From Pectobacterium atrosepticum (GTDB lineage: Bacteria > Pseudomonadota > Gammaproteobacteria > Enterobacterales > Enterobacteriaceae): DNA of 64,000 nucleotides. This document shows positions 36,331 through 58,737 of the stretch, in pieces. Under the pieces are notes generated by a model, which ran no database searches, was not told the DNA's origin, and was given only the letters and a program-made list of their open reading frames with translations. The stretch is taken from positions 4,216,001 to 4,280,000 of the forward strand of contig CP036163.1 in NCBI GenBank assembly GCA_019056595.1, in the 5' to 3' direction. Numbering within the stretch: the first letter of the stretch is position 1; every line of letters begins with the position of its first letter. Both the position numbers and the translations under genes were made by a program.

Positions 36331-37794
36331 TCAGGATTTCTGGTACTGGCGGAAACGCTGCTGCAACTGACGGAGCTGGTCGATACGGGCGTCGTAGCGC
36401 GCCTGCTCCAGGCTCCCCAATTTGACCAGTGAACTCGCGTTGCTCAGTAACCGAATAGATTGATCGAGCTGACCGTTAAGCGCCAGACTTTCTGCGCGTG
36501 CAGCCAACTCTTCTGCGCGCTGTCCTTGGGCTGCTGCGGTTTGCGCCAGCAGATCCCAGCCGTTCGGATCGTCAGGGTGCGCATAGGTGTAGCGATACAA
36601 TATTTTGCCGGCAGCAGCAGGCTGTTTCCCTTCAACATAGGCATTGGCCAGATTAAGCTGAAGTACTGGGTTAGCCTGCATTCCGGGCACGTTTTGTAAA
36701 CGGGCGATAGCCTGCGCGGCACGATTTTGTCCCAGATCGATGTCGGTCATCATATCCAGAAACCACGGATTGTCTGGTGCGCTGCTTAGCAGCGGTTGCA
36801 GCACATTACGCGCTTCATCGTACTTCTTCGCCTGATAAAGCTGAATCGCACGGCCATATTTTGCGGCCAACTGTTCCCGTACGTTACCCTTTTCCCATTG
36901 CACCAGCAGATCGTCGTTTAGTGGGCGATCCGGTGAGCCATACATACCAAAGGTGCGTATTTTGGCGAACAAGAAATCCTGAGAAGACTGCACTGGTGTC
37001 GGGCGCATCTGGTTGGCGCGGTTACGAGCGTCAGACAGGCGACTTTCCGGCAATGGGTGAGTCAGCAACATTTCCGGTGGTCTTGAAGCATAACGCGATT
37101 GATCAGCCAGCTTTTGCAGGAAATTCGGCATGGCTTGCGGATCGAACCCTGCACGCTGCAGCACCTGAATCCCGATGCGGTCTGCTTCTTGTTCATTCGA
37201 TTGCGTGAAGGTAATCATGCCTTGCTGCGCGCCAGCCAGCGTACCGCTGAGCGCTGCCATTCCTAACTGTGGATTGGCCATCGCCAGCAGGATGGAACCG
37301 AGTGCGCCGACCCAAGTGAGCGGAGCGCTGCGCTGCTGTGATTCCATGCTGCGCGCTAAATGCCGCTGGGTAACGTGAGAGATTTCATGCGCCAGCACGG
37401 AGGCCAGTTCGCTCTCGCTATCGGCATAGCGGAACAGTGCGGAATGCAGTACCACATTGCCGCCGAAGAAGGCGAAGGCGTTGATGTCGTCATTACGGAT
37501 CAGATAAAAATGGAACGGCGTGCGCACGGAATCGGCCTGTTTGACCAATCTGTTACCGAGCTGATTAATGTAATTGGACAGCAGCGGGTCGTTGATAAGC
37601 GGCGCACCGGCTCGTAACTGACGGACGTAAAAGTCGCCCATTGCCAGCTCCTGATTGATACTAAGCGTACCGCCTGCGGTGGTGCCGATATCCGGCAGCC
37701 GATCCTGCGTGTCAGCCTGAGCAGGAAGCAGGTTGCCAGCCAGTAGCGTCCCAAGCAGGACGGACATGACCGTTTTTCTTAACCGAATAGACAT
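36331..37794 (-). CDS. bepA: Periplasmic chaperone/metalloprotease BepA
   Basis: M48 metalloprotease that assists or degrades LptD and other outer-membrane proteins. It has a signal peptide (cleavage probably after AQA), and the zinc motif HEISH lies near residue 135 in [20 protein letters not shown]-type C-terminal half follows. The start ATG at 37794 ([15 protein letters not shown]) gives 487 residues or very close, as in E. coli; an upstream ATG at 37815 is also in frame. Confidence 0.94.
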
Positions 37795-39407: not shown

Positions 39408-40286
39408 ATGTTTACGGGAAGTATTGTTGCGCTAGTTACGCCGATGGACGCCAAAGGCGCCGTTGACCGGGCGAGCTTGAAAAAACTGATTGATTATCAT
39501 GTCGCTAGCGGTACATCGGCGATTGTCTCTGTCGGCACGACGGGTGAGTCTGCCACGCTGAGCCATGACGAACATGGCGATGTCGTGCTGCTGACGCTGG
39601 AACTGAGCGACGGACGTATTCCTGTTATCGCTGGAACGGGTGCTAATGCTACTGCCGAAGGCGTTTCTCTGACCAAACGGTTTCATGGCACGGGTGTTGT
39701 TGGCTGCCTGACGGTCACACCGTACTACAATAAACCGACGCAAGAAGGTCTATACCAGCACTTCAAAGCGATCGCCGAGCATACCGATCTGCCGCAAATC
39801 CTGTATAACGTACCTTCCCGTACTGGCTGCGACATGTTGCCGGAAACTGTTGCCCGTTTGTCCGAAGTGAAAAATATTGTCGCAATTAAAGAAGCGACGG
39901 GGAACTTAAGTCGGGTAAGTCAGATCCAAGAGCTGGTTAGTGAAGACTTCATTTTGCTGAGCGGCGATGACGCCAGCGGTCTGGATTTTATGCAACTCGG
40001 CGGTAAAGGTGTGATTTCCGTGACAGCGAATATCGCTGCGCGTGAAATGGCTGAACTTTGCAGGCTGGCGGCGCAGGGCAATTTTGTCGAAGCGCGCCGT
40101 TTAAATCAGCGCCTGATGCCACTGCATCAGAAATTATTTGTTGAACCCAATCCTATCCCAGTGAAATGGGCTTGTAAGGAATTGGGACTCATGGCGACCG
40201 ATACGCTGCGCCTGCCGATGACACCGTTGACTGATTCCGGTCGTACGGTGATGGGGCAAGCACTTAAGCAAGCGGGTTTGCTGTAA
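39408..40286 (+). CDS. dapA: 4-hydroxy-tetrahydrodipicolinate synthase DapA
   Basis: Condenses pyruvate with aspartate semialdehyde, the first committed step of lysine and diaminopimelate synthesis. The segments [10 protein letters not shown] and [12 protein letters not shown] are conserved, and the Schiff-base lysine lies in [12 protein letters not shown] near residue 161. The start ATG at 39408 follows GGAGGGGATGGCCA and gives 292 residues as in E. coli. bamC follows 16 bp later. Confidence 0.97.
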
Positions 40287-45005: not shown

Positions 45006-46271
45006 TCAGTTCAACTGTGATTTGAAGGCGGGCGCACGACGAAGTAATTCCCACAGCGTTTCCTGCAAGGGGATTTTCTGCGCTTCTGACAGCTGCGAGT
45101 AGCGCTGATAAAATGCATCCTCTTTCGCGGAAAAATCCGGGTTTTCCTGAAGCCATTGTTCACGTAGCGCGGTAATTTGCTCATCCGTTAGCTTTTTGCT
45201 CGGCGTGGCGTCTTCCTGTGCCTGAAACCAGCGGAAGCGCTTATCTGGCGTTGCGCGTTCTTCTCTGCTCCATCCGTCTTTAATTTGCAGGATCTGCGCC
45301 AGCGCGAAGCCAAGAGTGGTACTGATGCTGCGCCAGCTATCAGCGTCGGACGCGGCAGGCGGCGGCGATAGGCTGGCGAGTATTGTGGCAATATTCTTTT
45401 CCAGGCCCAGTTCGGTAGCCGCTTTTTCTTCCCAGCTTATTGCCTGCTGATGCAGTGCCGTCCATTCGCTTTCTGCCACGGCTTCACCCGCTAACAGCCG
45501 TGAAATTGCCTGAACCCACTGCTGACGCAAGCCGTCTACGGTTTCATCTACCAGCCAGTCAGACCACGGATTTCCTTCGTGACTTAACCAGTGGTGCAGC
45601 CATTGCAGCGCAACGCCATCTACCGTTTTTCCCGGAGCGAGAGCCGCAAAGAGGGCATCAACCTGTTCTGGTGTGGTGCTCGGCAGTTTTTCCAGCAGCA
45701 GGCCGAGCGAGGCCGGTAATCCGGTGATGCGTTCAAAGATGCGAATGTCTGCATTGTGCGCTAGCGCAGCAGAGACTGAGCCTTTGTTGTCCTGCCAGTA
45801 GGGGGAAAATGCGTGTTCGATATTACCGTCCGCCGCATGCTGACGTAGCCGCTGGTGGAGGAATGTGTGCAACGAAGCATCACCATAGAACGTGCTCCAC
45901 GTAACGTGAGTGTCTGCCAGCGGCTGTGCGGTGTTCTGTATCGCAATCTCGTGCGATTCCAGCCAGCCGCGTAGCTGCGCCAGCGTTTTCACACCGATCT
46001 GCCGTGAAATCTCCTGCCCATTTTTAAACAGCAGCAGCGTAGGAATACCTCGTACCCCAAAACGCTGCATGAATGCCGGATATTGCTCCACATCCAACTT
46101 GGCGACGGTTAGGTTGTCTGGCGTGTTATCGGCAATCGTGTTTAGCAGAGGAGCTAGCGTTTTGCACGGCTGGCACCAGGGTGCCCACAGGTCGAGCAAA
46201 ATGGGCTTGTCACTGTTATTGAGCAACGTATCCAGCGAGGTGTCGCTGGCAGTAATGATGGCGTCTGACAT
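45006..46271 (-). CDS. Thioredoxin with large C-terminal region of unknown function
   Basis: The first 110 residues are a thioredoxin domain with the redox motif WCQPC (Cys33, Cys36), a variant of WCGPC, and the cis-proline loop GIPTLLLF. The remaining 310 residues are rich in charged and helical sequence and were not recognised. The N-terminal layout recalls CnoX/YbbN, but that protein has another active-site motif and about 280 residues. There is no signal peptide, so it is cytoplasmic. It is the last gene of a unit with TldE-like and TldD-like proteases, 66 bp after the latter. The start is ATG 46271 after GGAG. Confidence 0.8.
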   Translation of the reverse strand: MSDAIITASDTSLDTLLNNSDKPILLDLWAPWCQPCKTLAPLLNTIADNTPDNLTVAKLDVEQYPAFMQRFGVRGIPTLLLFKNGQEISRQIGVKTLAQLRGWLESHEIAIQNTAQPLADTHVTWSTFYGDASLHTFLHQRLRQHAADGNIEHAFSPYWQDNKGSVSAALAHNADIRIFERITGLPASLGLLLEKLPSTTPEQVDALFAALAPGKTVDGVALQWLHHWLSHEGNPWSDWLVDETVDGLRQQWVQAISRLLAGEAVAESEWTALHQQAISWEEKAATELGLEKNIATILASLSPPPAASDADSWRSISTTLGFALAQILQIKDGWSREERATPDKRFRWFQAQEDATPSKKLTDEQITALREQWLQENPDFSAKEDAFYQRYSQLSEAQKIPLQETLWELLRRAPAFKSQLN

Positions 46272-46337
46272 GGTGTCTCCGTTCAGAGAAAATAGTGAGT
46301 AAGTTGAGTAGGGGGCAGTGAACCGTGACAACACGGC

Positions 46338-47783
46338 TTACTGTGAGCCGCCTACGGTCATGTTGTCGATACGAAGCGTTGGCTGGCCGACGCTGACGGG
46401 CAGGGATTGGCCTTCTTTGGTACAGGCGATATTGCCGTCATCCAAAGCCAAATCGTTACCCACCATCGCGACGTGCAGCAATGCTTCTGGCCCGTGACCA
46501 ATCAGCGTGGCACCTTTAACCGGGCGGGTGACGCGTCCGTTTTCAATCAGGTAGGCTTCGGTGGTGGAAAAGACGTATTTCCCGCTGCTGATATCAACCT
46601 GCCCGCCGCCGAAGCCGACGGCGTAGAGGCCGTTTTTGACCGATGCGATCACTTCTTCGGCTGGATATTGTCCTGCCAGCATGTAGGTGTTGGTCATGCG
46701 CGGCAGCGGTAGCGCAGAGTAGGAAGCCCGACGCGCGTTGCCCGTCAGGGCGGTATTCATCAGTCTGGCGTTGAGGCTGTCCTGTAAATAGCCGCGCAGG
46801 ATGCCGTCCTCGATTAATGTCGTGCACTGTGACGGTGTGCCTTCATCGTCCACATGCAGCGAACCCCGCCGGTTGGCGAGCGTGCCGTCATCCACGACGG
46901 TAATGCCCGGCGCGGCAACGCGTTCTCCTAACAGACTAGAGAATGCGGAACTGCCTTTGCGATTAAAATCGCCTTCCAGCCCGTGCCCGATAGCTTCGTG
47001 CAGCAAAATGCCGGGCGAACCTGCACCAAGGATCACGCTGTAAGTTCCTGCTGGCACCGGGCTGGCGTCCAGATTATTCAGCGCCTGATCGACAGCCTGA
47101 TTAACCCACTGGCTGACCGTCTCGTCAGCAAAGAATCGGTAGTCGAGGCGTCGCCCACCACCGCTGGAACCATTCTCCCGACGACCCTGCTGTTCGACGA
47201 CGACATTGATGACCAGATTCACCAGCGGGCGAACGTCGGTGGCGAGCCGACCGTCATGTCGGGCGATCAGAATGGTTTCGTGTGAAGCATTCAGGTAGGC
47301 CGTGACCTGCGTCACGCGGGGATCGCGGGCACGCGCCTGTCTGTCGATCGAGAGCAGAAGCTGACGTTTATGTTCTTCGGTTACGGCAAGTAAAGGATTG
47401 TCTGACGGATAAAGCGCGGTCGTGCCGTGCGGCAGCGACGCGGGTAGTGCCACACTGGCGGTCTGTCCCCGACGACTGATTTCTCTTACGGTATTGGCTG
47501 CTTGCAGAATAGCCTGCGGGCGGAGGTCATTGGTGTAGGAGAACGCCGTTTTCTCGCCGCTGACGGCGCGGACGCCAACGCCCTGATCGCGGCTAAATCC
47601 TGTTGGGCGCACAATGCCGTTTTCTAACTGCCAGCCTTCCTGCTGGCGGCGCTGAAAATAGAGATCGGCATAGTCCACCTGACGCTGCATGATGTGGTTC
47701 AGCGCGTGCGTTATCTCCGTCGTTTCCAGCGAAAATGCCGACAGCGCAGGTGAGACTCCCGCTCTGGAAGCGTGTATTGCCAT
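46338..47783 (-). CDS. TldD-like metalloprotease paralogue
   Basis: Zinc metalloprotease subunit of the TldD/TldE type, which in E. coli processes microcin B17 and cleaves unfolded peptides. The metal motif HEAIGHGLEGDFNRKG is intact near residue 265. The C-terminal KEGQSLPVSVGQPTLRIDNM matches TldD. Its 481 residues equal E. coli TldD, but identity looks moderate by eye. The location differs from that of E. coli tldD, so I take it as a second, specialised copy. It follows the TldE-like gene by 34 bp. The start ATG at 47783 has AGGA upstream; the frame is open to 47846. Confidence 0.9.
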   Translation of the reverse strand: MAIHASRAGVSPALSAFSLETTEITHALNHIMQRQVDYADLYFQRRQQEGWQLENGIVRPTGFSRDQGVGVRAVSGEKTAFSYTNDLRPQAILQAANTVREISRRGQTASVALPASLPHGTTALYPSDNPLLAVTEEHKRQLLLSIDRQARARDPRVTQVTAYLNASHETILIARHDGRLATDVRPLVNLVINVVVEQQGRRENGSSGGGRRLDYRFFADETVSQWVNQAVDQALNNLDASPVPAGTYSVILGAGSPGILLHEAIGHGLEGDFNRKGSSAFSSLLGERVAAPGITVVDDGTLANRRGSLHVDDEGTPSQCTTLIEDGILRGYLQDSLNARLMNTALTGNARRASYSALPLPRMTNTYMLAGQYPAEEVIASVKNGLYAVGFGGGQVDISSGKYVFSTTEAYLIENGRVTRPVKGATLIGHGPEALLHVAMVGNDLALDDGNIACTKEGQSLPVSVGQPTLRIDNMTVGGSQ

Positions 47784-47817: not shown

Positions 47818-49182
47818 TTACTGCCCGGCGATCTGCATCTCTTCAATCAATAGGGAACCGCAGGAGAGATTGCCCTGCGTGTGGATGTCCGCTCCGAGCG
47901 CGACACAGTGCAGGAGCAGCGTTTTCAGGTTGCCTGCAATGGTGATTTCTTCGACCGGATACTGAATTTCGCCGTTTTCGACCCAAAAGCCCGCCACACC
48001 CTGCGAATAGTCGCCCGTCATTGGATTCAGTCCGTGCCCTAGCAACGTGGTGACCAGCAGTCCTGTGTGCATCTGGCGCAGCAGCGCTGGCAAGTCATCG
48101 CCAGCGCGACTCTGGTTGCTGCTGACGCTCAGATTATAGGCTCCACCTGCGTGTCCGGTCGTCGTGAGCCCCAGGCGTCGAGCGCTGTAGCTTGAGAGAA
48201 AATAGCCTTGTGCAATGCCGTCGTGGATGACATGACGCGGAGCAGTTGCGACGCCTTCAGCATCGAAGCAGGCGCTGGCCAGTGCGCCGGGAATAAACGG
48301 ATTTTCATACAAGCTCAGGTGCGGTGCAGTGATGGCCTCACCGAGGCACTGACCCAGAAATGACGTGGATCGATAAAGCGCCGCGCCGCTCAGCGCACCG
48401 ACCAAATGATGAATCAGGCTGTGCGCCACGGGGGCCTCAAACAGCACTGGACTGCGGCGGGTTGAGAGTTTTCGTGCACCTAGCTGTGCCACCGCACGTT
48501 GCGCGGCGGTATGTCCGATAGCCTCTGGCGAGGCCAGCAGCGACGGCGCTCTGCCGGAGGTGTGCCAGAAACCCTGCTGACGTTGCGTATCGTTACGCGC
48601 AATCGCATGGCTCCACAGGGTGTGTAACGATGTTGGGTAACCTGCCGAAAAACCGGCAGAGTTCGCCAGAATAAAGTCTCCCTGCTGCGAGGTGATTTCC
48701 GTGCTCTCGCTGTAGCCATGTTCATGTGTGGTATTGGCGGCCTGCTCGGCGCGCAGCGCCAGCGACAGCGCTTGCTCAACCGTCAGCGTATCGGCGTTGT
48801 GAAGCGCAAGATCGTAAATATTACGGGCGAAATGCTGTGCTTCCGGCAGACCGCTACACGGATCCTCATCGGCATATTTTGCCAGCGTGCTAGCGGCATC
48901 AACGGCATCCTGCAACGCTTCCTTGCTAAACAAGGTCGAAGAAACGGTGCCTGCGCGCTGGCCGAAGTAGACCGTAACGGACAGGAAGTTGCTTTGGTTT
49001 TGCGTCAGCGTATCAATATCGCCGTTCCTGACGCGGATCGTACGGCGGTTTCCCTGCGAGATGCTGACGACTGCCTGACTCGCGCCTTTTGCGGCCGCGA
49101 AGTCCAGCACGTCTCCGGCCAGCGACTGAAGCGTGTCGGTCTGCGGCGTAGCAAGAACGGGGGATTCATCAAGAGAAGGCAT
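47818..49182 (-). CDS. TldE/PmbA-like protease subunit paralogue
   Basis: Partner subunit of the TldD/TldE heterodimer; TldE lacks the metal-binding HExxxH motif, and none is seen here. Family features are GLPEAQHFARNIYDL, the substrate-binding segments near YNLSVSSNQSR, and TTLLGHGLNPMTGDYSQGVAGF cut here as GLNPMTGDYSQGVAGFW. Its 454 residues fit PmbA/TldE. It is the first gene of the TldE-TldD-thioredoxin unit and is preceded 36 bp upstream by the motif shared with the tonB and receptor units. Confidence 0.9.
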   Translation of the reverse strand: MPSLDESPVLATPQTDTLQSLAGDVLDFAAAKGASQAVVSISQGNRRTIRVRNGDIDTLTQNQSNFLSVTVYFGQRAGTVSSTLFSKEALQDAVDAASTLAKYADEDPCSGLPEAQHFARNIYDLALHNADTLTVEQALSLALRAEQAANTTHEHGYSESTEITSQQGDFILANSAGFSAGYPTSLHTLWSHAIARNDTQRQQGFWHTSGRAPSLLASPEAIGHTAAQRAVAQLGARKLSTRRSPVLFEAPVAHSLIHHLVGALSGAALYRSTSFLGQCLGEAITAPHLSLYENPFIPGALASACFDAEGVATAPRHVIHDGIAQGYFLSSYSARRLGLTTTGHAGGAYNLSVSSNQSRAGDDLPALLRQMHTGLLVTTLLGHGLNPMTGDYSQGVAGFWVENGEIQYPVEEITIAGNLKTLLLHCVALGADIHTQGNLSCGSLLIEEMQIAGQ

Positions 49183-49217: not shown

Positions 49218-49247
49218 GATGTGCAACGAAGAAAGAAAAGCGTCACC
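49218..49247 (-). promoter_or_regulatory. Shared motif, copy A (before TldE-like gene)
   Basis: In the direction of the gene this reads GGTGACGCTTTTC, a spacer, then TCGTTGCACATC. It matches copy B at 26 of 30 positions, and an A-tract lies upstream in both. It is a candidate ECF-sigma promoter or operator for the protease/thioredoxin unit, ending 36 bp from the start codon. Confidence 0.75.
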
Positions 49248-49346
49248 GCACGCCGAAACTTTTTTTACGCTGAGGAATTTGGATGATGGAGAAGATGATG
49301 CGCTCTGATGCTGGCGAGGCTTTCAGCACCAGAGCGAAAGAGGAAG

Positions 49347-49769
49347 TCAGGGGGCTTTGACGGGTTGCAGGACGAAATCGATTTTGCTCAGGCCACGCTG
49401 CTGGGCATTCGTCATGACATACGCTACCCGACCATATTCGACGGCCTGATCGGCAAACAGCCGTATATTCGGGTGAGTGCCTTCGGCTGAGGCCGCATCG
49501 AGTTTGGCGATCAGTTGGGCATCATCGACCGCTTCTTTATTCCAGTTAATTTGTCCGGTTGCGGTAATCGCGATATCCACAGCTTGTGGATCTTTTTTGA
49601 TTTTTTCGACGCTGGCGCGCGGTAGATCCACTTTGACGGCGTGATTAATGACCGGCAGGGTGATCATGAACACGATCAGCAGCACCAGCATGACATCGAT
49701 AAACGGCGTCATGTTGATGTCGTTAAGCAGGGCGTCTTCCTGACTTTCAAACGGGGATGACATACTCAT
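49347..49769 (-). CDS. exbD: ExbD-type biopolymer transport protein
   Basis: Proton-channel subunit that energises TonB. The single membrane helix near residues 21-43 carries the essential aspartate in NMTPFIDVMLVLLIVFM, followed by a periplasmic domain. Its 140 residues match the family. It follows the exbB gene by 14 bp. The start may be 49769 or the ATG two codons in. It is dedicated to this cluster judging by position; a housekeeping copy elsewhere cannot be excluded. Confidence 0.93.
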   Translation of the reverse strand: MSMSSPFESQEDALLNDINMTPFIDVMLVLLIVFMITLPVINHAVKVDLPRASVEKIKKDPQAVDIAITATGQINWNKEAVDDAQLIAKLDAASAEGTHPNIRLFADQAVEYGRVAYVMTNAQQRGLSKIDFVLQPVKAP

Positions 49770-49783
49770 GGCTATGTTCCTCT

Positions 49784-50542
49784 TCAGGCGGAGCGCTCAA
49801 CGGGGTGAGTCGGCTCATACCGCGCTGCACTATTCTGGTCGGTAATACTGGTCAGATCGGTAATACTGGTATCCACGCGTGCGCCAGTCAGCAGGTAAGC
49901 GTGCAGATCGTGCGCAAAGCGATTCATGGCATGCAGGACGATGCGATTGCGGCGGTTGATTGCGTTGAATCCTAATACGGCCGGAATCGCCACGAACAGG
50001 CCAAACGCCGTCATGATCAAGGCTTCGCCGACAGGGCCAGCAACCTGAGCCAGATCGGGCTGGCCGATGGTACTGATGGTTTGCAGCGCGTGAAAAATGC
50101 CCCACACGGTGCCTAGCAGGCCGATAAACGGCGCGGTACTGCCGATAGACGCCAGCGTGCCGAGGCCGGATTGCAGTTTGCCTGAGTTGGTGTCCAGCGT
50201 GTTGCTCAGGCCGCGCACCAGCCAGTCGCTGAGATCGACGTGTCCGCCCAGCGTGGAAGAAAATTTGTGCGGGTGTTTCAGCAGCGCGTGCCCTTCGATC
50301 ACCAGATCGCGGAACGGGTTAAAACGCTGCTTACCGAATTTCTCGACGCTCTCTTGCAGGCTGGTCGCCTGCCAAAAGGTATTCCGACTGTATTGCACGC
50401 TTTTGTTCAAGGCGAATAACTGCCGCGCTTTAAGCAGCATGACCGTCCATGACAGCAGCGACATGATGAGCAGAATGATGGCTACCGAGTGGGTGACCAC
50501 GTCGCCCTGCTGCCAGAAATGATGGATATCTAACGTGTTCAT
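49784..50542 (-). CDS. exbB: ExbB-type (MotA/TolQ/ExbB) proton channel protein
   Basis: Channel-forming subunit with three membrane segments (near residues 15-35, 125-150 and 165-190). The signature LASIGSTAPFIGLLGTVWGI and GEALIMTAFGLFVAIPAVLG are intact. The start ATG at 50542 follows GAGGT and gives 252 residues; the TTG further upstream lacks support. It lies between tonB and exbD in the order tonB-exbB-exbD. Confidence 0.93.
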   Translation of the reverse strand: MNTLDIHHFWQQGDVVTHSVAIILLIMSLLSWTVMLLKARQLFALNKSVQYSRNTFWQATSLQESVEKFGKQRFNPFRDLVIEGHALLKHPHKFSSTLGGHVDLSDWLVRGLSNTLDTNSGKLQSGLGTLASIGSTAPFIGLLGTVWGIFHALQTISTIGQPDLAQVAGPVGEALIMTAFGLFVAIPAVLGFNAINRRNRIVLHAMNRFAHDLHAYLLTGARVDTSITDLTSITDQNSAARYEPTHPVERSA

Positions 50543-50620
50543 GTGTGACCTCTTATGCAATAACCTGATTCGGGCGTGTTTGCGAAACGGCGGATGCGCT
50601 ATGTCAACGCGGGTGCTTTC

Positions 50621-51499
50621 TTAGTGAGTCAGCCGGAAATTAACGGGCTGAATCGTCATGACAGTAATGGCCTGTCCATTTTCGCGGTAAGGCGTACAGC
50701 GTGCCTGCGCTACGGCCTCAATCGCGGCCTGATCGAGTGCGTCATAGCCGCTACTGCGGGCAATGTCGTGTCGAATCAATCGCCCCTCTGGGCTAATCAC
50801 CAGACGAACCAGCACGTTGCCTTCCTGCTGGAGACGCTTGGCGCGGCGAGGGTAGTCAGGTTGCGGGACGACACAGCCAACGGATGCAACCTGCTTAGGC
50901 TGCGCACCCGGGCTGTTCTGCATCAGGTTGCCCTTGCTGGCGGTCGTCAGTGTGCCTGGCGTCGCTTCCGGTGCGGTGTGAGACGGCTCCGGTGCCGGAC
51001 GCGCCGCAGGCTGACGCTCAGCGGTGGTTTTTGGGCGGATGGGCTGTGGTTTTACCACTGGCTTAACCGGCGGCTGGTGAACCTCTTTTTTGACCGGAGG
51101 CGGCGTTTGCTGTTCCTCAACGACTGGTTTTTCAGGAACGGGCGCAATTTCACGTTCACCCTGTTCTGATGTCAGCACGGGTGGCTCCGGCGACGGTTCA
51201 GGAATCGGTTCGGGTTCTGGCGCGTCAACCATCGTGGCCTGAATGCTTATGCTGGCTGCTGGATTGAGCAGGTTGATCGGTGTGTATTCAGTGGTTCGCG
51301 TGATGAGTAAGGCAGCGACACCGGCATGGATCAGCGCGACCGTCAGAAAGCTGAGCGCAATCCTCCCCATTTCTCCCCGGTCGGGCGCCGCCACCGCCAT
51401 GCTGCGCGACGGCTGTGCGGGTGCGACGTCACGCCGTGCGGCGGGTGCCGCATCAACGCGCGCGTTTAACGAAAGGTGTTGCACGGATGCCTGTTGCAC
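50621..51499 (-). CDS. tonB: TonB energy transducer
   Basis: Couples the ExbBD proton channel to outer-membrane receptors. A cytoplasmic N-terminal extension of about 45 residues precedes the membrane anchor (IALSFLTVALIHAGVAALLI). A proline-rich spacer with EP and KP repeats follows, then a C-terminal TonB box-binding domain with DYPRRAKRLQQEGNVLVRL. The start is a GTG at 51499 behind GAGGAAAAC. The long N-terminal extension is unlike housekeeping TonB and suggests a dedicated transducer. Copy B of the shared motif lies about 80 bp upstream. Confidence 0.93.
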   Translation of the reverse strand: MQQASVQHLSLNARVDAAPAARRDVAPAQPSRSMAVAAPDRGEMGRIALSFLTVALIHAGVAALLITRTTEYTPINLLNPAASISIQATMVDAPEPEPIPEPSPEPPVLTSEQGEREIAPVPEKPVVEEQQTPPPVKKEVHQPPVKPVVKPQPIRPKTTAERQPAARPAPEPSHTAPEATPGTLTTASKGNLMQNSPGAQPKQVASVGCVVPQPDYPRRAKRLQQEGNVLVRLVISPEGRLIRHDIARSSGYDALDQAAIEAVAQARCTPYRENGQAITVMTIQPVNFRLTH

Positions 51500-51580
51500 G
51501 TTTTCCTCTGCTGCTCTTACTTACGGTGTCGGACGCTTTATGCCGCCCTGAACATCGGGATTGTGATGACCTCTATTAAC

Positions 51581-51610
51581 GATGTGCAACGAGGCAGGAA
51601 AAGTGTCACC
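51581..51610 (-). promoter_or_regulatory. Shared motif, copy B (before tonB)
   Basis: Towards tonB this reads GGTGACACTTTTCC, a spacer, then TCGTTGCACATC, with an A-tract and TTTC upstream. It lies in the fecR-tonB gap, so tonB-exbB-exbD is probably transcribed separately from fecIR. Confidence 0.75.
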
Positions 51611-51669
51611 ACGTGCGTGAAATTTTTTGCGGCTTGCCATCCTTGACTACCACCTTTGCGAGCCATCGC

Positions 51670-52644
51670 TTATACGTGTCTGGCGTCGGCGGCGCGGATA
51701 TGTATCCAGTAATCGGTGGTATGCACAATCGCGATGGGCATGGTTTGCGCCAGAGAATCCAGCGTGTAGTTCAGGTTATCTAACGGGAAATTGCCACTGA
51801 CGCGTAAATCAGCGATAGCGGGATCCAGCCGGATTATTCCGGGGGTGTAATCACGCAGTTCGCTGATGACCGACGCCAGCGAGCGATCGCGGACTTCCAG
51901 ACGACCCTGCATCCAGGCGCTTTCCGCCTCCGGCGTGACGGCAACCTGATAGAGCGTTGAGCGATCGAACCAGACGCCTTGACCCGCGTGAAGGCGCAGG
52001 CTTTGCCCTGCGTGGTTAGTCACCTTGGCGATGTTATCCAGCACGCCGACGTGGATGCCGCCGCTTTCATGACGCACGTTCACATTGGCCTGAAGCGCGA
52101 CGATATTGCCCATGTGGGTATCAATAATAAAAGGGCGTTGTGCATCCGATTTAATCTTCGCGAAGATACCACCGTTGAGAATGCCGACCTGACGGAGGGT
52201 ATTTTCTGGTTCAACGTTGATATCGACGGCGGTACGCGCGTTCAACATGAGCGTGCTGCCATCGCTGAGCGGAACCTGCTGGCGCTGTGCCGTGGCAGTC
52301 TTCACATCAGATAGAAGGGGTGATAGGGGGTAATGTTGGTTAAGTAACAAGCTGCTTAGCGAGGCGATGGCCACCATGCCCAGCCCATATTGCAGGACTT
52401 TGCGCCGACCTGAGGGGGCTAATAGCGCCTGGCGAATCGGTTCGTGAGGCAGCGCGGCGAGAAGCGGCTGAAATTTCCCCAGAGTTTGCTCAATGCGTTG
52501 GCAGGCGCGCTCATGCAGAGGGTTTTCGTATCGCCAGCGTCGGTACTCATCATAGTCGGACTGTGTTGCTTCGCCCGAACGCAGCAGCACCATCCATTCA
52601 ATCGCCTGTTCGGCAATCGGGTCATCCATGTGTCGTCTTGCCAT
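51670..52644 (-). CDS. fecR: FecR-type anti-sigma factor / signal transducer
   Basis: Inner-membrane regulator that relays ligand occupancy of a TonB-dependent receptor to an ECF sigma factor. The cytoplasmic DUF4880-type N-terminus includes AIEWMVLLRSGEATQSDYDEYRRW. One membrane helix lies near residues 83-100. The periplasmic FecR domain (VPLSDGSTLMLNARTAVDI) and a C-terminal STN-like segment follow. The start ATG at 52644 has AGGTGA at good spacing; a GTG at 52653 abuts the fecI stop. The name marks the family and does not imply a ferric citrate substrate. Confidence 0.92.
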   Translation of the reverse strand: MARRHMDDPIAEQAIEWMVLLRSGEATQSDYDEYRRWRYENPLHERACQRIEQTLGKFQPLLAALPHEPIRQALLAPSGRRKVLQYGLGMVAIASLSSLLLNQHYPLSPLLSDVKTATAQRQQVPLSDGSTLMLNARTAVDINVEPENTLRQVGILNGGIFAKIKSDAQRPFIIDTHMGNIVALQANVNVRHESGGIHVGVLDNIAKVTNHAGQSLRLHAGQGVWFDRSTLYQVAVTPEAESAWMQGRLEVRDRSLASVISELRDYTPGIIRLDPAIADLRVSGNFPLDNLNYTLDSLAQTMPIAIVHTTDYWIHIRAADARHV

Positions 52645-52653
52645 GCGGTTCAC

Positions 52654-53175
52654 CTATAAGTCACTGCTGTCCTGTGTGGCCAGATAGCAGTTGGTCAGCG
52701 CTTTGGCGATATATTTTCTCACCATACTGGCGGAGACATCGAGCTGTACGGCAATGTCGGCATAGGTCATGCCATCAAGCTGGCTAAACAGAAATGCCTG
52801 CCGTGCTTTGGTGGATAACCCATCCAGCGCCTGATCGATAGTGAGCAGCGCCTCCATCAACAGCTGTTGATCTTCTGGTGACGGATGGTGAAATTCAGGT
52901 TTACTCGCCAGCGCGGTGAGATAGGCTTTTTCCAGATCGCGGCGACGCCAGTTTTCATACAGTACGCGTTTGGCGAGCGTGGTTAGCATCGCGCGCGGTT
53001 CCTGTACATTGGCAAGATTTGGTAGCGAGGCCAAACGTAAAAATGCCTCTGAGGCGACATCTTCCGCTTCACAGCCGTAGGCAATACGGCGGCGTAATCT
53101 TTCCGTTAGCCAGCGATAGTCGCTACGAAATATCAGCGACAGTAAGTCGGGTTTTTTAACAGCCTCTATGTACAT
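52654..53175 (-). CDS. fecI: FecI-type ECF sigma factor
   Basis: Extracytoplasmic-function sigma factor with region 2 (RLRRRIAYGCEAEDVASEAFLRLAS) and region 4 (KARQAFLFSQLDGMTYADIA) separated by a short linker. The start at 53175 follows AAGG at good spacing and gives 173 residues, the usual FecI length; the frame is open to 53292. fecR follows directly. It is divergent from the receptor gene and, by analogy, should transcribe the receptor and related units. No copy of the shared motif precedes it. Confidence 0.92.
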   Translation of the reverse strand: MYIEAVKKPDLLSLIFRSDYRWLTERLRRRIAYGCEAEDVASEAFLRLASLPNLANVQEPRAMLTTLAKRVLYENWRRRDLEKAYLTALASKPEFHHPSPEDQQLLMEALLTIDQALDGLSTKARQAFLFSQLDGMTYADIAVQLDVSASMVRKYIAKALTNCYLATQDSSDL

Positions 53176-53584
53176 GGGCATCCTTAAATAGCGTAAATCA
53201 CAACAATGCTTGAACCGGGATACCCCAGGGCCGCAGAACAAAAGGAACGATGCGTCCTGTGCTGTTTTTAAGTCAAAATATGCAGGAGTCAAACAACGTT
53301 TTTTTTCTATGGTTAGTTAGAAATGTTCTGTTACTGACTGGAATGGGTAAATCTCTATTTCTGGATGTTTCTTGGCGGGCGATAAAAAAGACAATTCAGA
53401 AGAGTGATTCATTTTTATATTTAAAAATACAGAGGAAAGATTTGTCCAAATCAATCTGTTTTCTACCGAGGAAAAAATAATTACGGGAAAAATGACTTTC
53501 CCACTGTCACTTTTCCATCGTCATTGCACAAATCATACGAAGACCAATAAAAACTGATTTTTTGAAGCAATTGACGAGGGAAAA
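53176..53584. other. Divergent control region fecI / receptor
   Basis: About 400 bp without a supportable gene. The right half carries shared-motif copy C and, just before it, the inverted repeat GGGAAA-N6-TTTCCC at 53485-53502. No convincing Fur box was seen before fecI. Confidence 0.5.
53503..53532 (+). promoter_or_regulatory. Shared motif, copy C (before receptor)
   Basis: Towards the receptor gene this reads TGTCACTTTTCC, a spacer, then TCATTGCACA. It agrees with copy B at 21 of 30 positions without gaps, and it ends 52 bp before the start codon. The conserved blocks are at identical spacing in all three copies. Confidence 0.7.
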
Positions 53585-55960
53585 ATGAAAAAACGTAATA
53601 CTGCCTCTCCCGCTCTGGGGCTGAGTTTTAAGAAACGCTTATTCTTCACTAATATGTTGGCGATTAATTCTGCGTTATTCATGGGGGCAACGACCGTTCC
53701 TATGACCGTCTATGCGGCGGGTGAAAATGACACCGTGGCATTTTCTATTCCTGCGGGCGACCTGCAAAAAGGGCTATTGGCAATCGCCAATCAAAGCAAA
53801 CAGACACTCTCTTTTAATCCTGCGCTGGTGGCGAATTATCAGAGTGCCGCGCTGAATGGCAATTATTCAACGCGTCAGGCTATTTTACGCTTACTGCAAG
53901 GTACGCCGTTATTATTGACGACGACGGGTAATGGCACGCTGACCATTGTTTCTTCCCGCGCTAATGATGCAGATGTGGCGCAGGCGAGTGATAAAACGCT
54001 GCCAGCGATTACCGTCAGCGCAGGCAGTGAAGATGAAACCGTATTGAATCCCGGCACCTCCTCTTCGGCATTACGCACCAGCACGTCGTTGCAGCAAACG
54101 GCACAGTCAGTTCAGGTGATCAGTAATAAGCTGATTACCGCCCGTCAGGCCACATCGTTGGAAGAGGCGTTAAAAAACTCAGGCAGCGTGGTTACCATTC
54201 AGTCAAACCGTGGTACGCCTACGTACTGGATGCGTGGCTATGCCGTAACGTCTGGTGCGACGGATGGCCTGTCGGGCTCTAGCAATGCTGGTATTGGTCA
54301 GGGTACGGCGATTGAGGGGGTCGAACGTGTTGAAGTGCTGAAAGGGCCACAGTCGGTGCTCGCGGGAAGCAGTTCCGCCGCGGGAACCATTAACGTTGTG
54401 CGTAAAAAACCGGTAACCGAACCGTTGCATGTCCTCAAAGTCGAGGCGGCGCGCTACGGTGAATTTAAAACGGCTATCGATCTGGGTGGCGCGATCACGG
54501 ACGATAAAGCGTTCAGCTACCGTTTAAATGCCTCAACCATGAAATCTCAGCACTCCTTTCCTGATTACAACGGTAACCACGGTGATTATTTAGCCCCAGC
54601 GCTGACCTGGAAAAACGACAATACGCGGATCACCGTTGGTGCGGAAGTGAATCAGGCACGTAAATCGGGACCTGCCGGAACGATTTACGCTAACGGGAGA
54701 ATACAGAAGCTGCCGGAATATCGTCTGGGGGATAAAGACGATCATAACAAGATGAAAACGACGAATGCCTATTATGAGCTGGAGCAAAAACTCGTCGACG
54801 ATTGGACATTCAACAGTAAAGCGGGTTTCCAGAGCACGGCTTCGCAGATGAAGATGAACGAAACGCTGGATATCGCCGCTAATGGCAACAAAATTAGCCA
54901 CCCGCTGGCCTATAAATCCACTAATCAGACGTGGAGCCAGCAAAATGATATTCGCGGGAAAATCGAAACCGGGCCCGTCACTCAGACTTTGTTGGTCGGC
55001 CATGACTATAAGCATGAACGCTACGCCAGCTATGACGGCAGCTTTATCCTGATGACCAATGGGAATGTGTATAACCCAGACTCGTTGGTGTTCCCCAGCA
55101 TCGGTGAACCGAATAGCCGGACGTACACGTCCAAGCTGATTCAAAGCGGCTTCCTGTTCCAGGATCAGATCGATGTCTTTGACCGCCTGCATTTCCAACT
55201 GGCGGTGAAGCGCTCGACATGGAACAACAGCTATTTGGTAGGAACGCGAGCATCGACGTATACCGCGACCAAGTGGATCCCCAATTACGGCATTAGCTTC
55301 GATATCACACCGGACGTCACGGTTTACGCCAACTTGCTGAATAGCTTTAGCGGCAGTGCGCAAGTTTCGCGTTCTGGTGTCCAGCTCCCCCCAACGACGG
55401 GGCAGTCTAAAGAAGCTGGGCTGAAATTCAACCTGCTCGAAGATAACCTTACGCTGACGACAGCCGTATTCAGCATTGAGCAAAAAAACCTAGCGGTAAC
55501 GGATAGAAACGGTTTCCCCATTGCGACCACGGGACGCAAAAGTGAAGGTTTTGACGTGGATCTGAACGGTTCTTTGTTGCCGGGATGGGATGTCACGGCC
55601 AGCTATACCTACTCGGATAATAAGGATCCTACCACCGTTCGTAGCACGATTACGCCGCGCCACTCTGGAAACGTGTGGACGTCTTATGAAGTGCAGTCTG
55701 GACGCTATCAGGGGGCCGGTGCATCAGTCGGTATCAGCGGTTCATCGAAAACGCAGAACGGCCCGAGCAATAACGCCTTCAACATCGGCAGCTCGGCATC
55801 AACCGATGCATCGGTGTTTTACCGCCAGCCTGACTGGTCGCTGACGCTGGGTGTCAACAACGTCTTCGATCGCGATATCTACTACACCAGCACGACGCCG
55901 CTATATATCGGAGTGAAAGAAGGGCGAACGTGGCGTCTCACTGGGACGTATTCGTTCTGA
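53585..55960 (+). CDS. TonB-dependent receptor with STN signalling domain
   Basis: Outer-membrane siderophore-type receptor of 791 residues. A long signal peptide ends near AYA-type residues 44-46 (MTVYAAGEND). An STN signalling domain follows (residues about 50-125, FSIPAGDLQKGLLAIANQS), as in receptors that talk to FecR. The plug contains VERVEVLKGPQSVLAGSSSAAGTINV, cut here as VEVLKGPQSVLAGSSSA, and the barrel ends with GRTWRLTGTYSF. It resembles FhuE/FcuA-like siderophore receptors, but the ligand cannot be read from sequence. Motif copy C lies upstream and the ABC gene follows 74 bp later. Confidence 0.92.
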   Translation: MKKRNTASPALGLSFKKRLFFTNMLAINSALFMGATTVPMTVYAAGENDTVAFSIPAGDLQKGLLAIANQSKQTLSFNPALVANYQSAALNGNYSTRQAILRLLQGTPLLLTTTGNGTLTIVSSRANDADVAQASDKTLPAITVSAGSEDETVLNPGTSSSALRTSTSLQQTAQSVQVISNKLITARQATSLEEALKNSGSVVTIQSNRGTPTYWMRGYAVTSGATDGLSGSSNAGIGQGTAIEGVERVEVLKGPQSVLAGSSSAAGTINVVRKKPVTEPLHVLKVEAARYGEFKTAIDLGGAITDDKAFSYRLNASTMKSQHSFPDYNGNHGDYLAPALTWKNDNTRITVGAEVNQARKSGPAGTIYANGRIQKLPEYRLGDKDDHNKMKTTNAYYELEQKLVDDWTFNSKAGFQSTASQMKMNETLDIAANGNKISHPLAYKSTNQTWSQQNDIRGKIETGPVTQTLLVGHDYKHERYASYDGSFILMTNGNVYNPDSLVFPSIGEPNSRTYTSKLIQSGFLFQDQIDVFDRLHFQLAVKRSTWNNSYLVGTRASTYTATKWIPNYGISFDITPDVTVYANLLNSFSGSAQVSRSGVQLPPTTGQSKEAGLKFNLLEDNLTLTTAVFSIEQKNLAVTDRNGFPIATTGRKSEGFDVDLNGSLLPGWDVTASYTYSDNKDPTTVRSTITPRHSGNVWTSYEVQSGRYQGAGASVGISGSSKTQNGPSNNAFNIGSSASTDASVFYRQPDWSLTLGVNNVFDRDIYYTSTTPLYIGVKEGRTWRLTGTYSF

Positions 55961-56034: not shown

Positions 56035-57837
56035 ATGAACGCAAGCGAGACGAGTACGACAAGACCGGGCATCGGCCAGATTCTGATGCCCTATTGGCAG
56101 ACGTCAGAGAAGTATCTGGCGCTGTTTATTCTGGCGGTGATTATTAGCATCAATCTGGGGACGGCCTACATCAGCGTGGAGGCGAACCGAGTCTCGGGGA
56201 AATTCACCGATGCGTTGATTGGGTTGGATTGGGAGCAAATAAAGCCGCTGTTTATCTTCAGCTTCATCCTCGGTTTGAGCGTCATGATGCTGAGATGGGT
56301 AAACGTGCTCAGTCAAGGCTATCTGGCGTTGCGCTGGCGTACCTGGATGACGCTCCACTATATCCGGCGTTGGACGGGGACATCGGCCTATTACGAAATA
56401 GAGAGAGACGGTGCGCTGTCGAATATCGATCAGCGTATCGCCGATGACGTTAACGAACTGGTATCGGCCTCGCTGAACTTTTTTCTCAGCCTTATCTCGG
56501 TCGTCATCAGCACTGTCACGTACACGGCGCTGCTGTGGTCGGTTTCTGGAGTGCTGCGTTTCTCGTTTATGGGCAGCGACTGGGCGATATCCGGCTATAT
56601 GGTTTACGCCCTCTACATCGAATATATCCTTCAGGTTGCGCTGTCGCACTGGCTGGGTAAGGCGTTGATAAAACTGAATATGGATCAACAAAATGCGGAA
56701 GGTGACTTCCGCTTCCTTGGCGTTCAATTACGTGAAAACGCGGAACAGATTGCTTTCTATCAGGGAGGATCGCGGGAAGGTGAACGGCTGGCCCAGCGGT
56801 TTGCTCGCGTGCGTGACAATGCGCTGTCTGTGCTGCTGCGTGGTTTTAAGGTGTCGTTTGGTCAGAGTCTGTTTAGCCATTTTCTCTCACCGTTGCCAAC
56901 GTTATTGGCGCTACCACAGCTGTTACGTGGAGAGATCACCTTTGGCGATTTGACGAGGATTCAAATGGCTTACGGTTCTCTGGGAGCGACGCTGAGCTAT
57001 TTTATGCAGGCGTATCAGGCCTTCACGCGCTGGCTAGCGCTGACGAAGCGTTTACAGGATATGGACGCTGCGCTGAACAAAAGTGTGCGGACGTCATCGC
57101 CTATTCGGGTGACGGAACACGACGGTCTTGGGTTTTCCTGTGAGAATCTGCGGCTGTTAACGCCGGATGGCCGTGCGCTGACCGCGTTAGATGATTGGCA
57201 GGTCTTGCCCGGTGAGCGTTGGATGATTAACGGCGCATCCGGTGTGGGTAAAAGCACGCTGCTGCGCGCCTGTGCCGGACTATGGCAGCACGGTAGCGGG
57301 GCGATTACACTACCTCGCCACTGCCGCACGCTGTTTTTACCGCAGAAAAGCTACCTCCCGACGGGAACGCTGAAAGCGGCATTGTGCTACCCCAGCAATG
57401 TGCGGGATTTTACCGACGAGCGGTGCCGACATGCGCTCATCGGCAGCGAATTATCGGACATGGCCTCGCAGTTGAATGATGAAGATCGCTGGCAGCAGCG
57501 GTTATCCGGCGGTGAGCAGCAGCGAATGGCGATAGCCCGTGCGTTGTTGCATCGGCCCGATTTTATTTTTCTGGATGAAGCCACCAGTGCGCTCGATCCT
57601 GAGACAGAGCAGCAGGTGTATCAGGCATTGGTCACGGCCTTACCTGATAGCGCGATTATCAGCGTGGCGCATCGAGAATCGCTGGCGGCTTTGCATACTC
57701 ATCATCTACATCTGGCACCTTTAGCCGAAAGTGACGGTCTGCACAAGAAGGATGCTCATGCAGGCGATGATGCACTGCCGCATCCAGATTCGGATAGGAC
57801 ATTTAGTGAACGTGGTTTTGCCTGGCGCGGTGAGTGA
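56035..57837 (+). CDS. SbmA/YddA-like ABC transporter, membrane and ATPase domains fused
   Basis: Inner-membrane transporter of 600 residues. The N-terminal half is an SbmA/BacA-like membrane domain with about six segments (for example YWQTSEKYLALFILAVII and LRWRTWMTLHYIRRW). The C-terminal half is an ABC ATPase with the Walker A GASGVGKSTLL, the signature LSGGEQQRMAIARALL and the Walker B FIFLDEATSALD. SbmA-family proteins import peptides such as microcins; YddA and FusD are fused forms linked to TonB receptors. Here it follows the receptor in the same unit, suggesting the second step of uptake. Export cannot be ruled out. Confidence 0.88.
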   Translation: MNASETSTTRPGIGQILMPYWQTSEKYLALFILAVIISINLGTAYISVEANRVSGKFTDALIGLDWEQIKPLFIFSFILGLSVMMLRWVNVLSQGYLALRWRTWMTLHYIRRWTGTSAYYEIERDGALSNIDQRIADDVNELVSASLNFFLSLISVVISTVTYTALLWSVSGVLRFSFMGSDWAISGYMVYALYIEYILQVALSHWLGKALIKLNMDQQNAEGDFRFLGVQLRENAEQIAFYQGGSREGERLAQRFARVRDNALSVLLRGFKVSFGQSLFSHFLSPLPTLLALPQLLRGEITFGDLTRIQMAYGSLGATLSYFMQAYQAFTRWLALTKRLQDMDAALNKSVRTSSPIRVTEHDGLGFSCENLRLLTPDGRALTALDDWQVLPGERWMINGASGVGKSTLLRACAGLWQHGSGAITLPRHCRTLFLPQKSYLPTGTLKAALCYPSNVRDFTDERCRHALIGSELSDMASQLNDEDRWQQRLSGGEQQRMAIARALLHRPDFIFLDEATSALDPETEQQVYQALVTALPDSAIISVAHRESLAALHTHHLHLAPLAESDGLHKKDAHAGDDALPHPDSDRTFSERGFAWRGE

Positions 57838-58295: not shown

Positions 58296-58545
58296 CTAAG
58301 TGTTTTCACCGGTGTCGTCTTCATCGACGAGTAATATCTTCATCATGCCCTGTGGGTTATTTAAAAACTGCCGCGTGATTTGATAATGCTCCGTATCCTG
58401 CCATGCAACCTGCTGAATACCGTTTTCATTGAACTGATAAATCACTGAATTAGGGTAGGCCAGAATAATAGGCGAGTGGGTAGCGATGATGAACTGACAC
58501 CCCGCGTTCACCAACTGATGGATACGCGCCAGTGCGGTGAGCCGC
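58296..58545 (-). pseudogene. Truncated C-terminus of an AAA-family ATPase
   Basis: The minus strand encodes about 80 residues (ALARIHQLVNAGCQFIIATHSPIILAYP and onward, cut here as CQFIIATHSPIILAYP) that match the C-terminal Walker-B-distal part of COG3910-type predicted ATPases. The P-loop domain and the conserved LDEPE segment are missing. Upstream of about 58545 the match stops and no start codon with a ribosome site is seen. It is a deletion remnant. Confidence 0.7.
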
Positions 58546-58737
58546 CTCCCAAATAAAAAGGGATTTGGAAAGTAAGGTTGACGTTAATGCGATGCATTAT
58601 TTCGGGGTATAAACCTTATTTGCATGAAGGGCGGTTTCTGGTAGAAAAGAACCTCAGTCTCCTTCACTAATCTTTGTGCAATAACCACAGGAAAGTGACA
58701 GCGAGAGCGCCATAATTTTTTGAATCAGGATAAGCCG

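Follow-up and report, generated by a model that had tools for sequence, protein, structure and literature searches.

Repeated motif with the layout of a FecI-type promoter in a TonB-dependent import and peptidase gene cluster of Pectobacterium atrosepticum

Results

The window analyzed here is a 64,000-nucleotide stretch of Pectobacterium atrosepticum DNA (assembly GCA_019056595.1, contig CP036163.1, positions 4,216,001 to 4,280,000, forward strand). It holds a gene cluster for a FecI-like extracytoplasmic function (ECF) sigma factor, TonB-dependent import, and TldD/TldE-type peptidases, in which a 30-bp motif recurs. A preliminary description of this DNA had reported three copies, here named A to C; their coordinates, strands, and identity counts proved correct when recounted on the sequence, but a fourth copy, D, and the FecI-type promoter anatomy had been overlooked. 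Genes and motif copies are listed by window position.

45006-46277, minus strand: gene for a fusion of a thioredoxin domain with some 310 further residues (Pfam)
46338-47783, minus strand: tldD-like metallopeptidase gene (TldD equivalog model, 598 bits versus a cut-off of 513)
47818-49182, minus strand: tldE (pmbA)-like gene, present in addition to a housekeeping copy (G000:C2:3164764) with which it shares 41% identity
49218-49247 (core, 49220-49245), minus strand: motif copy A, with putative -10 TGACGC, T-run, and downstream element TCGTTGCACA; points to tldE
49347-49769, minus strand: exbD-like gene (Pfam)
49784-50542, minus strand: exbB-like gene (Pfam)
50621-51499, minus strand: tonB (Pfam)
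51581-51610 (core, 51583-51608), minus strand: motif copy B, putative -10 TGACAC; points to tonB-exbB-exbD
51670-52653, minus strand: fecR-like sigma regulator gene (FecR and DUF4880 domains)
52654-53175, minus strand: fecI-like ECF sigma factor gene, 173 amino acids (Pfam/NCBIfam, tree); likely reader of copies A to D
53503-53532 (core, 53505-53530), plus strand: motif copy C, putative -10 TGTCAC; points to the receptor and ATP-binding cassette (ABC) transporter genes
53585-55960, plus strand: TonB-dependent receptor gene with STN signaling domain, plug, and barrel (Pfam)
56035-57837, plus strand: gene for an SbmA_BacA-related ABC transporter with fused ATPase (ABC_membrane_2 and SbmA_BacA models)
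58296-58583, minus strand: remnant of an AAA-type ATPase open frame, its C-terminal end (88% over 77 of the 253 residues of a relative's ATPase)
58675-58700, minus strand: motif copy D, two mismatches, A tract at 58716-58721; orphan, no intact gene downstream

The cell-surface signaling set of the cluster is complete, comprising an ECF sigma factor, a FecR-type regulator, and an STN-domain receptor. The receptor had 26 matches to solved structures at ≤1e-5, with FoxA and CntO nearest. The approximately 310 residues fused to the thioredoxin domain gave no Pfam match.

Without gaps, copies A and B agree at 26 of 30 positions, B and C at 21, and A and C at 21. When the three 200-bp upstream regions were dinucleotide-shuffled 2,000 times, the A-B score was never reached, and the B-C and A-C scores were reached six times each. 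Orientation and gene starts (tldE, 49182; tonB, 51499; receptor, 53585) bear out the earlier claim that each copy is directed at its own downstream gene. The upstream A/T tract reported as common is indeed present at all three copies, as A tracts at 49260-49266 (copy A) and 51623-51628 (copy B) and as GGGAAAAAT at 53485-53493 (copy C), its distance to the core differing by a few bases between them. The proposal that the copies head three separate transcription units gained no support from a terminator scan, in which 20 terminator-like sites were found versus 15.5 expected from shuffles (standard deviation, 4.5), which is no excess. A scan for sigma-70 promoters was uninformative (9 found, 9.5 expected).

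A genome-wide scan, as suggested in the preliminary description, was performed on the 5.04-Mb genome (two contigs) with the core pattern and up to three mismatches. It gave seven matches: A, B, and C without mismatches, which is expected by construction since the pattern was derived from them; D with two; and three others (one with two and two with three mismatches), each within a long open frame. The reversed pattern gave two matches. A slightly wider second pattern also matched seven sites (three at zero and four at two mismatches, D among the latter) versus one for its control. Because the scan with its control leaves the cluster copies as the only exact matches, a dispersed repeat, which the preliminary description had named as a refuting outcome, was rejected.

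The preliminary description had further proposed looking for conservation at orthologous upstream regions, and the motif is kept across the genus and in other genera. FecI was found at E ≤1e-50 in 15 of 25 genus genomes, in all of which the motif flanks fecI at ≤1 mismatch. At this level, one of the ten FecI-negative genomes (G161) has the motif, an orphan D copy with neither the cluster nor the autotransporter gene described below in the 15 kb examined. Two mismatches represent background within the genus, since one further, unrelated conserved sequence common to all 25 genomes is found at that level. Copies B and C are present in all 15 FecI-positive genomes, and copy A is present in 13. The remaining two (G149 and G157) lack tldE and tldD along with copy A and are the only ones in which the ABC transporter gene is followed by a gene for an M16 protease. 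Close to this position behind the ABC transporter gene, 5 of the 15 (G153, G158, G160, G168, and G172) have a DPPIV/S9-type peptidase gene or gene fragment. In G168 (L164), the cluster is decayed, with fragmented genes and an internal stop in fecI, and copies A to C are still kept.

Beyond the genus, a draw of 149 genomes from the family contained the motif at ≤1 mismatch in six, the same six that encode a FecI of ≥69% identity; the next best FecI was 48% identical, and the reversed control gave no match. In a draw of 398 genomes from the phylum, the motif was found at this threshold in three, all FecI positive (control, zero), and in a draw from the order, FecI was detected at E ≤1e-50 in 3 of 394 genomes. 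The loci of five other genera each have exactly two copies with one to three mismatches, B before tonB and C before the receptor gene, and here tldE and tldD follow the receptor, ABC transporter, and thioredoxin genes, all in one direction. Three of these genera carry one more copy elsewhere. In two of them it precedes an operon for a MacA-MacB-outer-membrane exporter (L190:5474-7037 and L192:5276-9896), for which the NCBIfam MacA, MacB, and NodT models matched below their equivalog cut-offs, only the MacA protein of the second operon having been scanned. In the third genus, the additional copy is an orphan whose position corresponds to that of D in the genus of the window. Such exporter operons bring to mind PvdRT-OpmQ, by which a ligand is exported or recycled.

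Among plasmid records, 59 had a receptor match, and five of these were examined. Two beta-proteobacterial clusters with exact motif copies encode FecI, the receptor, the Ton motor, the ABC importer, thioredoxin, and TldE/TldD. In Paraburkholderia caribensis NZ_CP015960 (FecI, 57% identity), an exact copy precedes tonB-exbB-exbD-ABC-thioredoxin-tldE-tldD, and a second copy with two mismatches precedes Lrp/AsnC-type and receptor genes; in Burkholderia cenocepacia NZ_CP091014 (FecI, 53% identity), a single exact copy precedes the whole gene run. Both loci were retrieved from the plasmid records by a 76-bp query around an exact copy from B. glumae as well as by the receptor search. An Lrp/AsnC-type regulator gene lies between motif and receptor gene in three beta-proteobacterial loci (L181, L186, and L187). 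By eye, sulfur-metabolism genes (sfnG and msuE) adjoin the B. glumae operon, which is a hint only, and a cysteine-desulfurase-like frame lies behind the P. caribensis operon. Searches of phage and Escherichia coli genomes found no relative of the cluster. These observations establish the sequences, orientation, and conservation of the copies and the fact that they occur together with FecI.

Alignment with the E. coli fecA promoter provided an interpretation of the parts of the motif. The fecA promoter has the layout GGAAAATAATTCTTATTTCGAT-TGTCCT-TTTTACCCTTC-TCGTT-CGAC, which recurs in the fec locus of the P. atrosepticum genome, and copy A has the layout TAAAAAAAGTTTCGGCGTGCGG-TGACGC-TTTTCTTTCT-TCGTT-GCACA. 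On the basis of this alignment, the 30-bp motif is most likely composed of a -10 element (TGNCRC), a start region with a T-run, and, downstream of it, the element TCRTTGCACA; the upstream A/T tract is likely the -35 element. In the promoter so predicted, an A/T-rich -35 would be followed some 13 to 17 bases on by the -10 element and the T-run at the start region, and TCRTTGCACA would lie within the first transcribed bases. The fec-type promoters (E. coli fecA and the fec locus of the same genome) have TCGTTCGAC as their downstream part where the cluster copies have TCGTTGCAC.

Conservation was tabulated for 22 sites from nine loci. To reduce redundancy, these were picked from 21 sequences, namely the window and 20 loci, in which copy A has 13 sites in total and copies B and C have 20 each. 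In the -10 element, which reads TGNCRC and is followed by TTTT in copies A to C, T, G, and C are invariant in 22 of 22 sites, as are three T's of the T-run. Within TTGCACA, the bases G, C, A, C, and A are invariant in all 22 sites, and the first T is found in 21. Conservation spans the -10 element and ends shortly past TTGCACAT, and the flanks diverge across genera. The A tract is more weakly conserved than the -10 element and GCACA; it is present at copies A to D with variable spacing, and a T tract is found instead at copy B of the five other genera. A review of FecI systems (PMC9249621) states that fecA transcription falls strongly when bases past its start are mutated and that -35 mutations matter less, a pattern that agrees with the strong downstream and weak A-tract conservation of the motif.

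Copy D is found at ≤2 mismatches in 14 of the 15 FecI-positive genus genomes and at three in G149. In all 14 of these genomes other than that of the window, D (13 copies at ≤2 mismatches and that of G149 at three) precedes, within about 0.3 kb, a subtilase-autotransporter gene, with Peptidase_S8 and Autotransporter domains in the one relative's gene scanned with Pfam. This gene is absent from window positions 37001 to 64000. The frame behind D in the window, in place of the relatives' genes, is a C-terminal piece of an AAA-type ATPase that is full-length in several relatives. Since the autotransporter gene is missing and only this ATPase piece remains, D is most likely a promoter left over after a deletion, of which the stretch from 58296 to 58700 would be the scar.

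In a tree of FecI-like sigma factors, the FecIs associated with TTGCACA promoters grouped with a paralogue from the genus member G151, which has TTGCTCA promoters, and with FecI of P. caribensis MWAP64 (support, 97/96), and the fec-type FecIs with TTCGAC promoters formed a separate group (98/99). The tree leaves out one sigma factor of the P. atrosepticum genome (L152), for which no match was obtained. The paralogous cluster of G151 (L155) encodes a FecI of 58% identity, a receptor, an ABC transporter, a separate thioredoxin, and an S9-type peptidase; its promoters are two divergent TTGCTCA copies, 49 bases apart, before the ABC transporter and receptor genes.

Discussion

Copies A to C are very probably FecI-type promoters read by the cluster's own FecI, which would couple import with peptide breakdown. 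The preliminary description had placed the proteases and the receptor in one regulon under the local FecI-like sigma factor, and this view gains support, since the motif and FecI co-occur, the anatomy matches that of fecA, and the same placement is found in beta-proteobacteria; one FecI-read regulon fits these observations best. Both the role of FecI as reader and the place of transcription start are inferred from sequence. Judging from the domain set, ligand binding at the receptor would be relayed via FecR to FecI. Co-occurrence and anatomy suggest that FecI would then read the copies before the receptor-ABC, tonB-exbB-exbD, and tldE-tldD-thioredoxin genes, and in relatives also the copy before the surface subtilase gene. 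If FecI reads all copies, import and peptide breakdown would be turned on jointly upon ligand binding. According to the protein families, the Ton motor may drive uptake, the ABC transporter may bring the ligand, whole or in pieces, to the cytoplasm, thioredoxin may reduce the ligand, and TldD/TldE may cut it. The ligand appears to be peptide-like because of the surface subtilase, the M16 and S9 peptidases of relatives, and the extra receptors of G151 that have SbmA-type importers next to them. This set of genes suggests that the bacterium imports and digests some peptide-like compound as a single programmed unit.

Several points weigh against reading the copies as FecI promoters. The -35 element is poorly defined, given the T tract at copy B in five genera. 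The B. glumae plasmid carries an exact copy, and no FecI was found on the plasmid (a chromosomal FecI was not sought). Conversely, P. caribensis MWAP64 has a FecI of 52% identity and import genes and no motif at ≤3 mismatches; this locus is also without a recognizable TldD, and its thioredoxin-domain protein is divided between two genes (108 and 333 amino acids). The sigma factor tree is weakened by long branches and seven open forks, leaving its inner order unsure. Finally, a generic form of the promoter architecture matched at 6 of 24 FecI-like loci, with three convincing fec-type sites, compared with ten matches in 1.34 million bases of control DNA, for which the loci from a TldE search of genome contigs were used (at least 80 loci at 41 to 49% identity). 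With convincing fec-type sites at only 3 of 24 loci, the architecture is not general for FecI-like sigma factors.

The preliminary description had mentioned a repressor operator as an alternative. In a wider form of this alternative, the motif, or its TTGCACA half, would serve as an operator for a repressor or activator, with the FecI promoter elsewhere or overlapping. TTGCACA is the most conserved part and lies in presumably transcribed DNA outside the classical -35 and -10 elements, an Lrp/AsnC-type gene directly follows a copy in three beta-proteobacterial loci, and the B. glumae plasmid combines the motif with no FecI found on it. However, the motif has no palindrome, every copy is directed the same way at its gene, no Lrp/AsnC gene is among the listed cluster genes of the window, and fecA has an equivalent downstream part for which we know of no matching operator. 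We therefore regard an operator as unlikely beside a FecI promoter. Still less credit is due to an RNA leader element through which the conserved bases would act posttranscriptionally. The downstream half would fall in the 5' leader, but conservation extends through the -10 element and ends soon past TTGCACAT, and sequence rather than structure is kept, as judged by eye. No Rfam family was found at positions 40000 to 64000, so a riboswitch or known leader RNA was rejected. A dispersed repeat or chance likeness, which the six shuffles in 2,000 reaching the B-C and A-C values might favor, is next to impossible given exact genome matches confined to the cluster, conservation across genera while flanks differ, and the exclusively FecI-positive matches of the phylum draw with their empty control.

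A more far-reaching proposal, offered tentatively and with our doubts outweighing our belief in it, is that TCRTTGCACA represents a sigma-specific promoter part in the first transcribed bases and that the regulon marked by it is an undescribed peptidase-coupled import and recycling program for a peptide-like ligand. Three promoter types can be compared: TGNCRC...TTGCACA for the FecI studied here, TGTCCT...TTCGAC for the fec-type FecI of the same cell, and TGTCAC...TTGCTCA for the G151 paralogue. Under this proposal, the -10 and downstream elements would tell them apart, and the program would include the receptor, the Ton motor, the ABC importer, thioredoxin, TldD/TldE, the surface subtilase, and the MacAB-type exporter that two other genera have.

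With E. coli fecIR-fecABCDE, the cluster shares FecI, FecR, and a receptor with a signaling domain, and with the fecA promoter it shares a TGTC-like -10, a T-run, the downstream TCGTT, and a candidate A-rich -35. It differs in its -10 (TGNCRC instead of TGTCCT) and downstream sequence (TTGCACA instead of TTCGAC) and in including its own tonB-exbB-exbD and peptidase genes. PMC9249621 describes E. coli FecI as controlling only one promoter, whereas three promoters and the vestige D are predicted here. The best Fur-box score was lower in the cluster than in the fec locus of the same genome (13 versus 15 of 19); this consensus scan is a weak test because it also missed the Fur site described for E. 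coli fecA. Most likely, the cluster represents a variant of FecI-type surface signaling whose promoter is extended and whose regulon takes in peptidases and is larger than that of E. coli FecI.

The Fus/PqqL systems (Pectobacterium Fus and E. coli ydd/pqqL) similarly cluster a TonB-dependent receptor, their own TonB, an inner-membrane transporter, and a protease, and in two genus members only (G149 and G157) the likeness extends to the M16 protease gene behind the ABC transporter gene. In contrast, the window has TldD/TldE in place of M16, with no M16 match in 37001 to 64000, its cluster is under putative FecI/FecR control, and its receptor is nearest to FoxA and CntO, none of the 26 solved matches being named FusA. 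As to whether the ABC transporter corresponds to FusD/YddA, the ABC_membrane_2 and SbmA_BacA models match at the level of family models. Judging from the TldE/TldD-for-M16 exchange in the two genus members, the protease slot may be interchangeable in import systems of this type. In the main text of PMC6793856, TldD, FecI, thioredoxin, promoter, and autotransporter never occur.

Microcin-type peptides are taken up through SbmA and processed by TldD/TldE, and the cluster likewise combines TldD/TldE with an SbmA-related importer; unlike in microcin systems, no precursor gene was recognized, though no systematic search for one was made. Our literature searches returned no description of the cluster, a statement limited to those searches, and the one on a lasso-peptide isopeptidase link returned no paper.

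FecI-type sigma factors are mostly known with one receptor promoter each, and in this cluster a single sigma factor appears to couple the receptor and importer, with their energy supply, to the peptidases. This coupling offers a handle on the ligand and a physiological setting for TldD/TldE apart from their function in housekeeping. Since the downstream element is strictly conserved in beta- and gammaproteobacterial copies, the old observation on fecA, that bases past the start are important, can be tested by exchanging sequences between FecI paralogues.

Further motif copies are found in G151. This genus member has two receptor-SbmA pairs in addition to that of the cluster, one of them behind a copy with two mismatches (L171, 5010-12853). 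On the same stretch (L171, 2-4198), a copy without mismatches precedes the gene for a secreted protein of at least 1,399 residues with matches to MGH1-like glycoside hydrolase and F5/F8-type C domains.

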